Shown here piece by piece: positions 27,961 to 36,275 of a stretch of 36,429 nucleotides of DNA (its first letter is position 1; every line of letters starts with the position of its first letter). The stretch covers positions 1-36,429 of the forward strand of contig CANRBV010000011.1 in the NCBI GenBank assembly GCA_947628965.1, in the 5' to 3' direction. The notes below the pieces were generated by a model, which worked only from the letters and a program-made list of their open reading frames with translations, had not been told where the DNA came from and did not search any database. The translations under genes and the position numbers were made by a program. The DNA comes from an uncultured Bacilli bacterium (GTDB lineage: Bacteria > Bacillota_I > Bacilli_A > RF39 > UBA660).

Positions 27961-28293
27961 CTATAATTCTATTATTCCATTAATAATATCTATAATTTCT
28001 TCTAACTCTTCTTCTTTTATTTTTTCAACAAATGATAATTTTCTTGCTTTAAAATCAATACTTCTAATATGTTCACATAATACTGAACCTTTTACTTTTT
28101 TTGTGTTTATTAATTCATAATGGGTGAAAAATTTCTTTGTATTTGTAGTAATAGGACACAAAACTACTAATCCAGTATATTTATTATAAGTGTCTCTACT
28201 AATAACAATTGCTGGTCTTAATCCTGTTTGTTCATGTCCTTTAGTAGGTGCAAAATCCATATAACAAATATCACCTTGTTTTGGTATATACAT
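27961..28293 (-). CDS. MazF/PemK-family endoribonuclease toxin
   Basis: PKQGDICYMDFAPTKGHEQTGLRPAIVIS; VLCPITT; GSVLCEHIRSIDFKARKL. Confidence 0.93.
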   Translation of the reverse strand: MYIPKQGDICYMDFAPTKGHEQTGLRPAIVISRDTYNKYTGLVVLCPITTNTKKFFTHYELINTKKVKGSVLCEHIRSIDFKARKLSFVEKIKEEELEEIIDIINGIIEL

Positions 28294-28553
28294 TAATCAA
28301 ATTTTTCCTTTCCTAAATCTTCTCCCCAATCATATAATTCAACACTACCTTTTTCATTATTAGGCAATTTTTCAAACATTTTAAATCTTTCTTCTAAAGT
28401 TAAATGCCTTTTTTTAGATTTTGATATTATAATTCTATCTTTTTCTTGAATTAAATCAACCTTATCATTTGTCTTTAAATTTAGTGATTTTAAAAAACTA
28501 CTAGGGATTCTTATTCCATCAGAATTTCCCCACTTTTGAAGTCTTGCTTCCAT
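28293..28553 (-). CDS. MazE-family (AbrB-fold) antitoxin
   Basis: MEARLQKWGNSDGIRIPSSFLKSLNLKTNDKVDLIQEKDRIIIS; TAATG overlap with the toxin start. Confidence 0.92.
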   Translation of the reverse strand: MEARLQKWGNSDGIRIPSSFLKSLNLKTNDKVDLIQEKDRIIISKSKKRHLTLEERFKMFEKLPNNEKGSVELYDWGEDLGKEKFD

Positions 28554-28575
28554 GATATCATCTCCATTCATTTAT

Positions 28576-28660: not shown

Positions 28661-29656
28661 TTATTCTCTATTACATCCTATATCTTTATGATTTAAATCT
28701 TTATAAATTGCGTAAGTTAAACATTTTAATCCACCATGACAGGATTCTGAATCCTCACAATTTTTACATTCATCAGGAATTTGATATTCTCTTAATTTCT
28801 TTAATACTTCATTATTTTTATATAAATCATACATCTTTTTTTCAAATAAGTTACCAACAACTATCGGCATTCTTCGACATGGAACTAAATCACCATTTTC
28901 CATAACAGTTAACAAACTATCTCCTGCTGTACATCCATAAGCAAAATCATTCGTCATTTGAAATTGCAAAGCTCGATACATTGAAATCGTCGTATTATTA
29001 TTTTTTATTTTTTTTAATTTGTTTCTCTCTTTACTCATAATAGATAAATATTCTCTTGTTTGCTTATAATTTAACGCTAAATCCTTATCTTCTGAATCAC
29101 CTAAAGGAATATATCTATCAGACCAAACATTGTTTACATCATATTTTCTAGCATATTTTACAACTTTAGGAAATTCTTTATAATTTAATTTAGTAGCAGT
29201 AAAGGAGATAGAGGTAAAAATATCTTGATTTCTTAAATTAACAATTCCTTTTGCGATTTTGTTATAAGTACCTTTACCTCTAATATAATCATTTGTTTTT
29301 TTGCCACCTTCTAAACTTACTTGAACATAATAAGGATTGTAACTTTTAATTTTTTTAGCAATCTCTTCCGTAATAAGAGTACCATTTGTAAGTATAGAAA
29401 AAGTAATGAAATCTTGATCTTTTTTTATGAGGTCTAAAATCTTAAATAAATGGGGATTACATAATGGTTCTCCACCAGTTATATTTATATGCCCTTTCAT
29501 TTTTAATTTTTTTAGTAATTCTTTAAATTGATTATATATATCAACTAACTCTTCATATTTTAATTGAATAGGTTTATGGGATTCTTGATAACAATGTAAG
29601 CATTTTAAATTGCAGTTTTCACTCAAATGCCATTGCAAAATAAATCTTTTTACCAA
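28661..29656 (-). CDS. radical SAM / SPASM-domain protein, TTG start, 331 aa
   Basis: CNLKCLHC (CxxxCxxC), NITGGEPL, C-terminal Cys cluster CRR...CKNCEDSESCHGGLKC...GC; TTG at 29654-29656 is preceded by GGAGG motifs. Confidence 0.85.
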   Translation of the reverse strand: MVKRFILQWHLSENCNLKCLHCYQESHKPIQLKYEELVDIYNQFKELLKKLKMKGHINITGGEPLCNPHLFKILDLIKKDQDFITFSILTNGTLITEEIAKKIKSYNPYYVQVSLEGGKKTNDYIRGKGTYNKIAKGIVNLRNQDIFTSISFTATKLNYKEFPKVVKYARKYDVNNVWSDRYIPLGDSEDKDLALNYKQTREYLSIMSKERNKLKKIKNNNTTISMYRALQFQMTNDFAYGCTAGDSLLTVMENGDLVPCRRMPIVVGNLFEKKMYDLYKNNEVLKKLREYQIPDECKNCEDSESCHGGLKCLTYAIYKDLNHKDIGCNRE

Positions 29657-31845
29657 GAACCTCCACCTCCACAAGAAGAGCATCCTCCTCCACAGGAAGA
29701 ACATCCACCACCGCAAGAAGAACATCCGCTAGAACTAGAACCACCACCCCCTGAAGAATGAACTGGTTCTGGATAATATACATTATCATATAAAGAATAA
29801 TAAGAATAGTCACTTTCATAGTTGAATGTTCCCATATCCATTTCAGGAATAGGGATATTTTCAAATTTCTTTATCCACTTTTTAGAAATATTCATAGCAT
29901 AAGTATATGGAAGAATGTTGTAAAAATAATTTGGATTTTCTAAAACTAATGCTTCTAATCTTGGCTTTTCTGCTGTAACTAAGAAATTTCTAAATCCTTT
30001 TACTTTAGCCGTAATATATTCACCATATTCGGTCTTTCTCTTCATAAATATCGTAAAGAATAAATTTATCAAATTACATATAAATGATAAATAATATAAA
30101 ACACTCCAATTAGGATCTAAATCTTCTACATATTTATAAGAGATTATACTTAATATTAAAATAACTATACTTCTAAAAATTGCACCCCCAATTTGTTTTG
30201 ATGCTATACTATCATGAACCTTATCTTTAAAACTGTTCTTTAATTCTGAAGCAATATCATTAAATGCTCTATAGAAAGTATGATGTTCACTTAAAATTAC
30301 AACATCCTTACTTTCAAATAATCGATCATAAACAATTTTCTCCATACTTGATAATGTAGGAAATTTAGACGCATCAGCTGCATACTTTTCCATATCCTTA
30401 TTATATTGTTCAACTTCTTTATCATAAGCTGCTTTTTTCTTATCAACATCTTTTAATCTTGCTTCTTCATTATCGTTAACAATTTCTATATAACCATCAT
30501 TTACTAGTTTGTCTTTAACAGCTAAAAATTTATCAATATTAGATTCTAATAATTTTGTATCACCTTTTTTAAATAAATGAATCATCATAGTCTTTTCTGA
30601 TTGATTTAAATTATTATCAGCATCTTTTAATTTTTTAACTTCTATTTGTCGTTTTGGTAGTGTTTTATCAAAATCTTTTACTGCTTTTGGTTTTATAAGT
30701 AAATTCGTTATTTGAATGTTATTATCTTCGTCTTTTAAATCATCAATTTTGATATAGCCTTTACTTGCTAATTGAATAATTAGCGAAATTGTGAATTTCT
30801 TACTTGCTTGTCTTTTGTTAAAGACATATCCGACTTCAGCAGAACTTAAATCATCTGGTGGATAAAATTCAACTGTTTGAGCCTTTTTAGGATGATCTTT
30901 ACCATACTTAACCCATTTATAAATAGTCCATGCCGTTAATGCAAATATAATCATTGAAATCATGAAAGAACCCCATCCATAATTCCAACTACCACCAACA
31001 AAATAACCTTCTGGTAATTCTATATCTAATGTTAATGATTTCTCTAATGGTTCATAGTAATATAAAGCAAAATATTCTTCATCACACGCTCCATCTTCAC
31101 TTAATCGCCACTCATCACTACAATAATCTTTTAATTGTTTTTTATAATTTTTCTCCTCATTGAATGTTGCGTATAAAGTATTTCCAATTATAGAAAAATC
31201 GACGACATCTGTAACATCATTTTTTCTAAACTTATCGGTAAAAAATTTAACATTATATCCATCAATATTTTTAGGCATATTAACCTGAATTGAGGCATTT
31301 TTTATCTCAGTTCCCCAATAATCACCATACGCATGGAATATTAATTCGTCAAAATTTTTATAAGGATCTTTTCCCATATCGTATGTATATTTAATGACAT
31401 AAGTTTTTTCCCCTTCACCTACATACTTATTGGCACTACCAATTTTAATTCTTGCTTTTCTTTTAACTGTATCTAAACTATAAGGATCTCCTACTGCACG
31501 ATAATTAGATATTGTTGCCTTTCTTTTTATCGTATCTCCATCTTGACCTGTATATTGCAGCCATAAAGGGGTAAATTTATATATACCATGATGATAAGAT
31601 TCATACCAATCAACGGTAATTTTTTCAGTAACTTCAACTTTATTGTCTTCTTTTACATCTAATAAAACATTATAAGCAGAAATTGTAAAACCATCCGCTA
31701 GTTTTTCAGTGCCTGCATCATCCCCAAAATATGATTCAAGCCCTGTTATAATAACACCTAGAATCATAAAGGCTAAGTAGCCAACCCAAAAGAATCCAAA
31801 TAATTTTCCTATAAAATTTCCACTCTTGTGAGATTTTTTTGCCAT
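29650..31845 (-). CDS. DUF2207-family membrane protein with C-terminal CSSCGGG repeat tail
   Basis: N-terminal TM, YNVLLDVKEDNKVEVTEKITVDWYESYHHGIYKFTP, TM helices, YPPDDLSSAEVGYVF; tail SSSSGCSSCGGGCSSCGGGCSSCGGGGSW. Confidence 0.88.
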   Translation of the reverse strand: MAKKSHKSGNFIGKLFGFFWVGYLAFMILGVIITGLESYFGDDAGTEKLADGFTISAYNVLLDVKEDNKVEVTEKITVDWYESYHHGIYKFTPLWLQYTGQDGDTIKRKATISNYRAVGDPYSLDTVKRKARIKIGSANKYVGEGEKTYVIKYTYDMGKDPYKNFDELIFHAYGDYWGTEIKNASIQVNMPKNIDGYNVKFFTDKFRKNDVTDVVDFSIIGNTLYATFNEEKNYKKQLKDYCSDEWRLSEDGACDEEYFALYYYEPLEKSLTLDIELPEGYFVGGSWNYGWGSFMISMIIFALTAWTIYKWVKYGKDHPKKAQTVEFYPPDDLSSAEVGYVFNKRQASKKFTISLIIQLASKGYIKIDDLKDEDNNIQITNLLIKPKAVKDFDKTLPKRQIEVKKLKDADNNLNQSEKTMMIHLFKKGDTKLLESNIDKFLAVKDKLVNDGYIEIVNDNEEARLKDVDKKKAAYDKEVEQYNKDMEKYAADASKFPTLSSMEKIVYDRLFESKDVVILSEHHTFYRAFNDIASELKNSFKDKVHDSIASKQIGGAIFRSIVILILSIISYKYVEDLDPNWSVLYYLSFICNLINLFFTIFMKRKTEYGEYITAKVKGFRNFLVTAEKPRLEALVLENPNYFYNILPYTYAMNISKKWIKKFENIPIPEMDMGTFNYESDYSYYSLYDNVYYPEPVHSSGGGGSSSSGCSSCGGGCSSCGGGCSSCGGGGSW
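29669..29731 (-). repeat. three 21-bp tandem units encoding the CSSCGGG-type tail
   Basis: ccacaagaagagcatcctcct / ccacaggaagaacatccacca / ccgcaagaagaacatccgcta on plus. Confidence 0.85.
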
Positions 31846-32405
31846 TATATTTTTACCTTTACACTTTCTCTTTCTGATTCATTTGCTTCAAACATAGCTT
31901 TTGATTTATACCCTAATATTTTTGCAACAATATTACTTGGGATCATTTCAACTTTGTTATTATAATTTCTAACTACTGCATTATAATACTTTCTTGACTC
32001 TGCAATTTCATCTTCAATTTTACTTAATGATTGTTGTAAACTTAAAAAGTTTTCATTTGCTTTCAAATCTGGATATGCTTCAGCTAGTGCCATTAATTTT
32101 GTAATGCCACCTGTTATTTGCTCATTCGTTTTAAGCTTTTGTTCATCAGATAAATTATCATAAGATTTTACACTATTTCTAATCTCAACTATTTCTTTTA
32201 ATGTATCTTTTTCATGTTTCGCATAACCTTTAACAGTTTCTACTATATTAGGAATCAAATCCCATCTCTTTTTTAAATAGACATCCATGGTTGCAAAACT
32301 TTCTTTTACCATGTTTTTCAATTTAACTAATTTGTTAAATGTGATAAAAAAATAAAATACAATTACTAAAACAACCCCTATTATAATCCATAAAATATAA
32401 TTCAT
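31845..32405 (-). CDS. LemA family protein
   Basis: N-terminal TM then FNKLVKLKNMVKESFATMDVYLKKRWDLIPNIVETVKGYAKHE; RKYYNAVVRNYN. Confidence 0.95.
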   Translation of the reverse strand: MNYILWIIIGVVLVIVFYFFITFNKLVKLKNMVKESFATMDVYLKKRWDLIPNIVETVKGYAKHEKDTLKEIVEIRNSVKSYDNLSDEQKLKTNEQITGGITKLMALAEAYPDLKANENFLSLQQSLSKIEDEIAESRKYYNAVVRNYNNKVEMIPSNIVAKILGYKSKAMFEANESERESVKVKI

Positions 32406-32424: not shown

Positions 32425-32454
32425 ATTATAACCTTCCCCTCGAAGTAAAGTCAA
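32425..32454 (-). promoter_or_regulatory. promoter of the lemA / DUF2207 / radical SAM operon
   Basis: TTGACT - 18 nt - TATAAT, followed by SD AGGAG and lemA ATG. Confidence 0.7.
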
Positions 32455-34387: not shown

Positions 34388-35287
34388 TTATCTTCTTTTT
34401 ATTAATTTCTTAAGAACAAGCCCTAAAATAGTAAGCAAGATTAAAGAAATAGGAATCCATAGTAACCAACGATTGTCTTTCTTTGACTCTTCTACCTCCA
34501 CTACAAAATTATCCTCTTCTTTTATTTCTTCCGCTATTTTTTCTTCTTCTCTTGTGATGTAAAGAATATAAGTACTAGAAGATTTATCTTCTGCTGTCAC
34601 CTTTATACGAATTGTATTTTCTCCAATATCTAGCGCATACTCTTCTTTCCATTCTGCTTTAGAGGTCTTTTTTTCAGGTTCTACATTTAATTTAATTTTC
34701 TCTGTTTCATATGGAACAGTAAGAGTATAAGTAAAAACATCCTTTTGAAAGTTAATAGAAATGTTTAGAATTTCTAAAGTCTTTAAAAAGCTATTTGAAT
34801 CTTTTTTTGTTGTTGTATTACTAGTAGAACTAGTACTTTTACTTGGAACTTTATCTAAATAAATAAAACCTGTTAGATAAATGCCAGATCCTGAACCAAT
34901 TTCAAAACTTGTAGTTCTTTCTTGCTTTTCTGCTCCGACAACACCACCTTCAATAATTTGCATATAATCATCAAAAACCTCAAGAACATAGGCAACGTGC
35001 CCATAGCCATAAAAACCAGAATAAACGGCAATTGAATTATCACGAGGTTCTTCTCCTACTTCATATCCAGCATTCTTAGCACTCTTAAGCCAGTTCACGG
35101 CATTTCCCCAACCACCTGGCAAAGCAATTCCTAGCCTTTCATACACCTCTTGCCAAACCACTCTTGTACAAGGAACACTTTCTTCACCATTAAAAGTTTG
35201 CGTTTTTGGATAGGGATTCGTTGCAGCAAAAACAAATAAAGGACTAAATAAACATAGAACAAAAAATATAAGAATACTTTTTTTCAT
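34388..35287 (-). CDS. CHAP-domain cell-wall hydrolase-like protein with cadherin-like beta-sandwich domain and C-terminal TM anchor
   Basis: Signal peptide; VPCTRVVWQEVYERLG (Cys) and GYGHVAYVLEV (His); NISINFQKDVFTYTLTVPYETEKIKLNVEPEKKTSKAEW; TM LLWIPISLILLTILGLVLKKLIKRR. Confidence 0.75.
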   Translation of the reverse strand: MKKSILIFFVLCLFSPLFVFAATNPYPKTQTFNGEESVPCTRVVWQEVYERLGIALPGGWGNAVNWLKSAKNAGYEVGEEPRDNSIAVYSGFYGYGHVAYVLEVFDDYMQIIEGGVVGAEKQERTTSFEIGSGSGIYLTGFIYLDKVPSKSTSSTSNTTTKKDSNSFLKTLEILNISINFQKDVFTYTLTVPYETEKIKLNVEPEKKTSKAEWKEEYALDIGENTIRIKVTAEDKSSSTYILYITREEEKIAEEIKEEDNFVVEVEESKKDNRWLLWIPISLILLTILGLVLKKLIKRR

Positions 35288-35291
35288 AACA

Positions 35292-36275
35292 TCACCACTT
35301 ATCACATGTTAAAGAATACTCTTCACAAATCTCTTTTGTTAATAATTTATCATAAGGACTATAAACTCCATAACCAGGTAATGTCACATAAATAGCCTCT
35401 TTAAATGTACTACCAATTTCACTATCTATACTTTTTTCACTAGCTTTTAATTCATCATTAATCTCATGATAAGCTGTATTACTTATTCTTAAATACTCAT
35501 ATTTGTAATCAATGCCATGCCCATCAATTACAGAGGTAAACTTAATTCCTTTTTTCTTTTCCTTTTCAATTTTTTGAACTACTGCTTTAGCTTTATTTTC
35601 TTTTTCACTATCAAAAGTAAATTTATTTTTAACCGCATCTAAAAAATCATCTAAACCTAAATCGATACCATCGCTATTTTTATCCTCATTCCAACCAATG
35701 GTAAGTTTTTTCTTACCAGCAAGTTCTGGAAAAACTTCTTCCAAATTGGTAATAAAATAATATCCCCCTGGTTGAGCATAATTTTCATAATGAATTGTAA
35801 CAGAAATATAATCATTTAAATTAATCTTATCAATAGTAGAACTGCTCTTGCTACTTGTATTATTTGTTGAACTTGACGCACTTGAAGTCTCTTTATTTTC
35901 GCTCGTTGTTTCTTTAACTTGTTCTTTTTCCCAAGTTGCCTTTAACGTAATATTTTCGTTAATTATGGTATTAAAATCAAACTCTTCATCGTTATACATC
36001 CAAGAAACAAAACTATAACCATCTCTTTTAGGATTTTCTGGTTTTACAGCCGTATTACCATTGTCAACTTTTAAAGGACTAACTGGCTCTCCACCATTTG
36101 AATCAAATAGTACGGTATAAACTTGCTTTTCCTCTTCTTCTGGTTTAACCTCCTCTATTTCATAAATTGGTTCTGTAATTTCTTTACCTCTTTGATACAA
36201 AGAAAAGCAAAAGCCTGCTACAAGTAACACAATTAAAACAACACAACCTATAATAATCCACTTTTTATTTTTCAT
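35292..36275 (-). CDS. membrane-anchored surface protein with Listeria-Bacteroides (InlB B-type) repeat
   Basis: N-terminal TM; YTVLFDSNGGEPVSPLKVDNGNTAVKPENPKRDGYSFVSWMYNDEEFDFNTIINENITLKATW. Confidence 0.8.
   Translation of the reverse strand: MKNKKWIIIGCVVLIVLLVAGFCFSLYQRGKEITEPIYEIEEVKPEEEEKQVYTVLFDSNGGEPVSPLKVDNGNTAVKPENPKRDGYSFVSWMYNDEEFDFNTIINENITLKATWEKEQVKETTSENKETSSASSSTNNTSSKSSSTIDKINLNDYISVTIHYENYAQPGGYYFITNLEEVFPELAGKKKLTIGWNEDKNSDGIDLGLDDFLDAVKNKFTFDSEKENKAKAVVQKIEKEKKKGIKFTSVIDGHGIDYKYEYLRISNTAYHEINDELKASEKSIDSEIGSTFKEAIYVTLPGYGVYSPYDKLLTKEICEEYSLTCDKW

Follow-up and report, generated by a model that had tools for sequence, protein, structure and literature searches.

A cysteine-tailed DUF2207 membrane protein and an adjoining radical SAM/SPASM enzyme in Bacilli: a candidate RiPP-like system on a membrane-protein tail

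The window analysed here, the whole stretch of 36,429 nucleotides, carries on its minus strand a lemA gene, a gene for a DUF2207 membrane protein and a gene for a radical SAM/SPASM enzyme (rSAM), which follow one another with overlapping ends. The features on which the analysis draws are as follows.

31845-32405, (-): lemA, the first gene of the operon here (PF04011, E=1.6e-53)
29650-31845, (-): DUF2207 membrane protein, 731 aa (PF09972 and PF20990)
28661-29656, (-): radical SAM/SPASM enzyme, 331 aa, with a likely TTG start (PF04055, E=1.8e-25; PF13186, E=3.4e-8)
29653-29727, (-): codons of the Cys-rich C-terminal tail GCSSCGGGCSSCGGGCSSCGGGGSW, the proposed substrate (conserved sequence; disorder in the model)
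29785-29811, (-): codons for DUF2207 residues 679-687, a short predicted helix before the tail (AlphaFold model)
29656-29675, (-): GGAGG-type Shine-Dalgarno within Gly codons, with the overlapping rSAM start codon (from the sequence)
32425-32454, (-): promoter-like site TTGACT-18-TATAAT (consensus match only)

The promoter-like site lies directly 5' of lemA and is itself preceded by a terminator-like hairpin (32628-32599); since such matches are frequent in the AT-rich DNA here, the match alone is no proof of a promoter. The sequence-only reading of this locus had described a three-gene unit with overlapping junctions, and the junctions were observed as described. Between lemA and DUF2207 the overlap is TAATG, and the DUF2207 stop falls within the start region of the rSAM gene, where a TTG at 29656 overlaps the final DUF2207 codons, Trp and stop (CTTGGTAA). 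It is likely that this TTG is the rSAM start, and an ATG or TTG overlapping the DUF2207 Trp-stop recurs in nearly all rSAM orthologues. At locus L106 the overlapping ATG reaches a stop after four codons, and the start there is likely to be the next ATG, five bases 3' of the DUF2207 stop. A longer rSAM ORF of 354 aa, starting at 29725, was rejected as an over-extension in which the tail repeat is read in another frame. Taken together, the Shine-Dalgarno and the start overlap suggest that translation of DUF2207 and rSAM is coupled. Of the proposed three-gene unit, the gene order and overlaps stood, while lemA as a constant member did not. It was seen in 12 of the 37 loci described below, a figure that is a lower bound because several loci are truncated; with lemA seen in only at least 12/37, it was rejected as a needed third part, and the unit is therefore the DUF2207/rSAM pair.

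Directly 3' of the rSAM gene lies a MazE/MazF-type toxin-antitoxin pair (27961-28571 of the window, minus strand; PF04014 and PF02452). Further along the window, at 34388-36275 on the minus strand, a CHAP-domain protein with a cadherin-like domain is encoded beside a Listeria-Bacteroides-repeat protein, and both are probably cell-surface proteins.

Membership of the membrane protein in DUF2207 was indicated by PF09972 (72 bits) and PF20990 (92 bits), both above the gathering score. Its tail, GCSSCGGGCSSCGGGCSSCGGGGSW, contains six Cys as three CSSC units in place of a plain Gly/Ser tail, exactly the sequence that had been claimed. Gly and Ser make up almost all of the non-Cys residues, and about half of the tail Cys precede Gly and about half precede Ser. 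The host genome (1.23 Mb, about 91% complete) carries three DUF2207 genes with lemA before each; the other two encode Gly/Ser tails, have no tail Cys and no adjoining rSAM gene.

The C-terminal CxxCGGGGSW was found to be invariant in 37/37 relatives, with synonymous codon changes, and the GGG ahead of the last CxxC was equally invariant (37/37). Chance or a repeat artefact as the source of the tail was rejected on the basis of this conservation with synonymous changes. The upstream CSSC units were gained, lost or degraded among the same relatives. In the most distant pairs, identity falls to 34-38% in the DUF2207 body and stands at about 67% in the enzyme and ~100% in the tail, where the DUF2207 protein is most strongly conserved. 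Because a sister clade of Gly-tailed DUF2207 proteins likewise ends in GGGGSW, the Cys tail may have arisen from a Gly/Ser tail by replacement of Ser or Gly with Cys.

Four transmembrane helices were predicted for the DUF2207 protein, and hydropathy together with the positive-inside rule gave a cytosolic C-terminus for the proteins examined. A cytosolic tail, so predicted, would be reachable by a cytosolic enzyme. The prediction agrees with the published topology of S. mutans DUF2207, which has a Gly/Ser-rich intracellular C-terminus (PMC10457818). The AlphaFold model of the protein (pLDDT 82) shows four membrane helices and folded domains, with a tail that is disordered over residues 695-731 (pLDDT under 50). 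A helix was predicted at residues 679-687; this segment is moderately conserved, with gaps, and it might be a recognition element for the enzyme.

The next gene had been read as a radical SAM enzyme with a SPASM-like Cys cluster and too short an N-terminus for an RRE, and both points were borne out. PF04055 and PF13186 are above their cut-offs, and the enzyme has the CxxxCxxC motif and seven SPASM Cys expected of a SPASM maturase: in 36 sequences C14, C18 and C21 of the cluster motif CNLKCLHC are invariant, as are C241, C259, C296, C299, C305, C311 and C327 of the SPASM region. The spacing in the latter is C-x2-C-x5-C-x5-C, and the C-x5-C at 305-311 is C-x2-C in ACGX enzymes and at locus L246. 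An extra Cys65, in GGEPLC, is also invariant. Only 13 residues precede C14, the first cluster Cys, too few for an N-terminal RRE, and a PqqD-like RRE (PF05402) was not found in the host genome at its completeness of about 91%.

Among NCBIfam models the enzyme was matched best by ACGX (TIGR04340; 153 bits, cut-off 400), followed by SbtM (TIGR04082; 146 bits against a cut-off of 350, with positions 199-497 of 516 matched), and PapB ranthipeptide maturases (NF047865) gave 110 bits against a cut-off of 340. The ACGX, SbtM and GeoRSP models match 36/36 members scanned, and the window enzyme lies far below their cut-offs. As every curated cut-off was missed, a known NCBIfam family name was rejected for the enzyme; with true ACGX enzymes only 24-25% identical to it, membership in a known unrelated family, which would have spoken against the proposed role, was not observed. 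Foldseek comparison of its AlphaFold model (pLDDT 84) gave SuiB, SkfB and anSME as top matches (anSME TM about 0.77), so that the closest folds are SPASM enzymes modifying proteins and peptides; sequence searches of solved structures returned distant SPASM enzymes only. At L246 (G772; minus strand, 1015-1197 and 1498-2517) a radical SAM/SPASM enzyme 31% identical to that of the window lies near a 60-aa peptide ORF ending GGNWCFGCTNCNCN (CFGCTNCNCN), and the two probably form a separate RiPP system.

A scan of 85,462 species genomes yielded 37 orthologues of the enzyme, 62-98% identical, the next best sequence being 26% identical; the scan used two short peptide patterns, and the count is thus a lower bound. 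Most orthologues belong to Bacilli genomes from gut and rumen, and one further source is Pseudobutyrivibrio sp. YE44 (L099). In 37/37 a Cys-tailed DUF2207 gene was found directly upstream, all ending in CxxCGGGGSW. Within 145 genomes of the window's family, close relatives of the enzyme were present in four (68-100% identity; next best 32%), each directly after a Cys-tailed DUF2207 gene (4/4). We inspected 123 other DUF2207 C-termini in these 145 genomes. Gly/Ser tails accounted for 109; none contains more than one Cys (a single incidental Cys occurs in one tail), and none is accompanied by an rSAM enzyme of the Cys-tail type. The contrast of 4/4 Cys tails with the enzyme against 0/109 gives a Fisher p=1.6e-7, not corrected for phylogeny. 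A six-frame search for CxxCGGGGxW matched 4/145 genomes, exactly those with the enzyme and at that locus.

When 200 genomes of the Pseudobutyrivibrio family were searched blind for the tail motif, three matches were returned: the known locus, a fortuitous match that lies in no DUF2207 tail, and a DUF2207 gene new to the set. This new locus, L238 (G649), encodes a DUF2207 protein with a one-CSSC tail, GGGCSSCGGGGSW, and has lemA before that gene and the enzyme after it. With a stricter motif of two full units, 392 genomes of the phylum returned the window only, in a sample that held few genomes of the window's family. Gene neighbourhoods vary apart from the DUF2207/rSAM pair, and in 39 loci with differing other neighbours neither a Cys-tailed DUF2207 without the enzyme nor an enzyme without a Cys tail was found. 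The expectation that the rSAM gene co-occurs specifically with Cys-type tails was thus upheld, no Cys-tailed DUF2207 having been seen without the enzyme. No relatives were found in viral contigs or plasmids, the viral scan being by strict peptide patterns, and a virus or plasmid origin was rejected on this ground.

Tree distances of the enzyme and of the DUF2207 body were correlated (r=0.79; 0/2000 permutations). The Cys-tailed DUF2207 proteins form one clade with full support, and the pairing therefore represents one association kept over long divergence and not many independent ones. Shared ancestry and linkage account for part of the pairing. In both trees L238 and L099, the two loci of the Pseudobutyrivibrio family, branch in separate positions among the Bacilli sequences, and this scattered placement suggests more than one horizontal transfer of the pair as a unit.

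The comparative evidence makes it very probable that the rSAM enzyme modifies the Cys-rich tail of its upstream partner, the DUF2207 protein. The tail had been put forward as the substrate from the window alone; strict pairing in 37/37, the conserved tail and its predicted cytosolic, disordered state support that proposal. The radical SAM/SPASM enzyme would be a dedicated maturase, and its substrate the Cys tail of the preceding DUF2207 protein. The DUF2207 body would serve as the RiPP leader and hold the tail on the cytosolic side of the membrane, and the core would be the C-terminal CxxCGGGGSW, usually after one or two further CSSC-GGG units. Translational coupling would ensure that enzyme and substrate are made together.

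As to the chemistry, sactionine-type thioethers, in which a Cys sulphur is joined to the alpha-carbon of Gly or Ser with a change of -2 Da per link, are our leading guess, held tentatively and by analogy. The guess was made because the tail is otherwise almost all Gly and Ser, both of them proven acceptors in streptosactin, where the S to C-alpha links are Cys25-Ser28 and Cys31-Gly34 (PMC8172795). This i to i+3 geometry fits the second Cys of a CSSC unit only, since the residue three places after the first is itself a Cys. It also speaks against a thioether that neither of the best-scoring families, ACGX and SbtM, is known for such links, and that SbtM forms a thiooxazole.

The SbtM match points to the main rival, in which the tail Cys would be turned into thiooxazole-type heterocycles, with four hydrogens lost each, giving a membrane-tethered metal-binding tail like the products of SbtM or of MNIO enzymes on bufferins. 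Among NCBIfam models SbtM ranks second, with a match to 36/36 members scanned, the enzyme is described as forming a thiooxazole with loss of four hydrogens (PMC11002830), Gly follows about half of the tail Cys, and TIGR04222 membrane proteins with Cys/Ser/Gly tails pair with MNIO enzymes (PMC12452194). We nevertheless find this outcome doubtful: the score of 146 stands against a cut-off of 350, about 200 N-terminal positions of the SbtM model are missing here (the match begins at position 199), and for about half of the tail Cys the next residue is Ser and not Gly. Structural likeness to anSME, which acts on a whole protein and ranks with the closest folds (TM about 0.77), would allow a conversion of Cys or Ser side chains of the tail to formylglycine aldehydes. 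We consider this very unlikely indeed, as the sulfatase motif, C/S-x-P/A-x-R, is absent, the tail has no Arg, and the best NCBIfam matches include no anSME model.

CxxC motifs are common metal binders and disulfide formers, and the tail could also be an unmodified metal- or redox-active element, the enzyme having another target and its link to DUF2207 reflecting shared operon ancestry only. That all pairs come from one origin is in keeping with such a view; however, Cys tail and enzyme were never apart in the 39 loci and DUF2207 is most conserved in its tail, which makes it improbable that the tail is left unmodified.

The nearest analogues of a maturase acting on the DUF2207 tail are the TIGR04222/MNIO, QhpD, streptosactin and ACGX systems, none of them identical. 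The nearest conceptual analogue is the TIGR04222/MNIO pairing, in which multi-pass membrane proteins adjoin MNIO (DUF692) enzymes and the tail is a proposed, unproven substrate (PMC12452194). Common to both are a multi-pass membrane protein, a low-complexity C-terminal tail of Ser, Gly and Cys, and an adjacent gene for an RiPP-type oxidative enzyme. However, the membrane family is another one: the DUF2207 protein did not match the TIGR04222 model in an NCBIfam search up to E=1, where its sole match was a chance one to MscL. The MNIO enzyme uses non-haem iron whereas the enzyme here is a radical SAM protein, the TIGR04222 tail is predicted to be periplasmic and not cytosolic, and the association is loose, a third of the genomes being without the enzyme.

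ACGX enzymes resemble the one described here in being short, in having no N-terminal RRE and in having a Cys substrate rich in Gly/Ala/Ser; true members adjoin SACGSACGxGDK-repeat peptides, and they differ in this free short peptide substrate, in the Cys spacing of the SPASM region and in their 24-25% identity. SbtM, the second-best model, likewise modifies Cys/Sec in a peptide, but has a long N-terminal region and a peptide substrate, and the window enzyme is below its cut-off. In streptosactin, Cys is linked to Ser and Gly, acceptors present in this tail (PMC8172795), yet the product is a short secreted peptide, and GggB is likened here by its described chemistry and not by sequence. QhpD and anSME, also of the radical SAM/SPASM kind, take full-length proteins and not short peptides as substrates (PMC8326336), but those substrates are soluble enzymes with other motifs, and sequence similarity is low.

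In the open-access literature, with subscription papers mostly outside this coverage, no description of a DUF2207 and radical SAM pairing was found. The system probably represents a new RiPP-like class, in which a radical SAM enzyme would act on the cytosolic tail of a full-length multi-pass membrane protein and form crosslinks or heterocycles from its Cys residues, without leader cleavage, RRE or export, the modified peptide staying tethered to the membrane. The presence in one genome of three DUF2207 paralogues, one with Cys and the enzyme, offers a built-in control, and the one-CSSC tail of L238 is a minimal tail that simplifies testing. If true, the proposal would carry radical-SAM RiPP chemistry beyond small secreted peptides, to a resident integral membrane protein. 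It would also open a biochemical route to DUF2207, a widespread Gly/Ser-tailed family of unknown function; in S. mutans, loss of DUF2207 reduces tolerance of acid and peroxide (PMC10457818).
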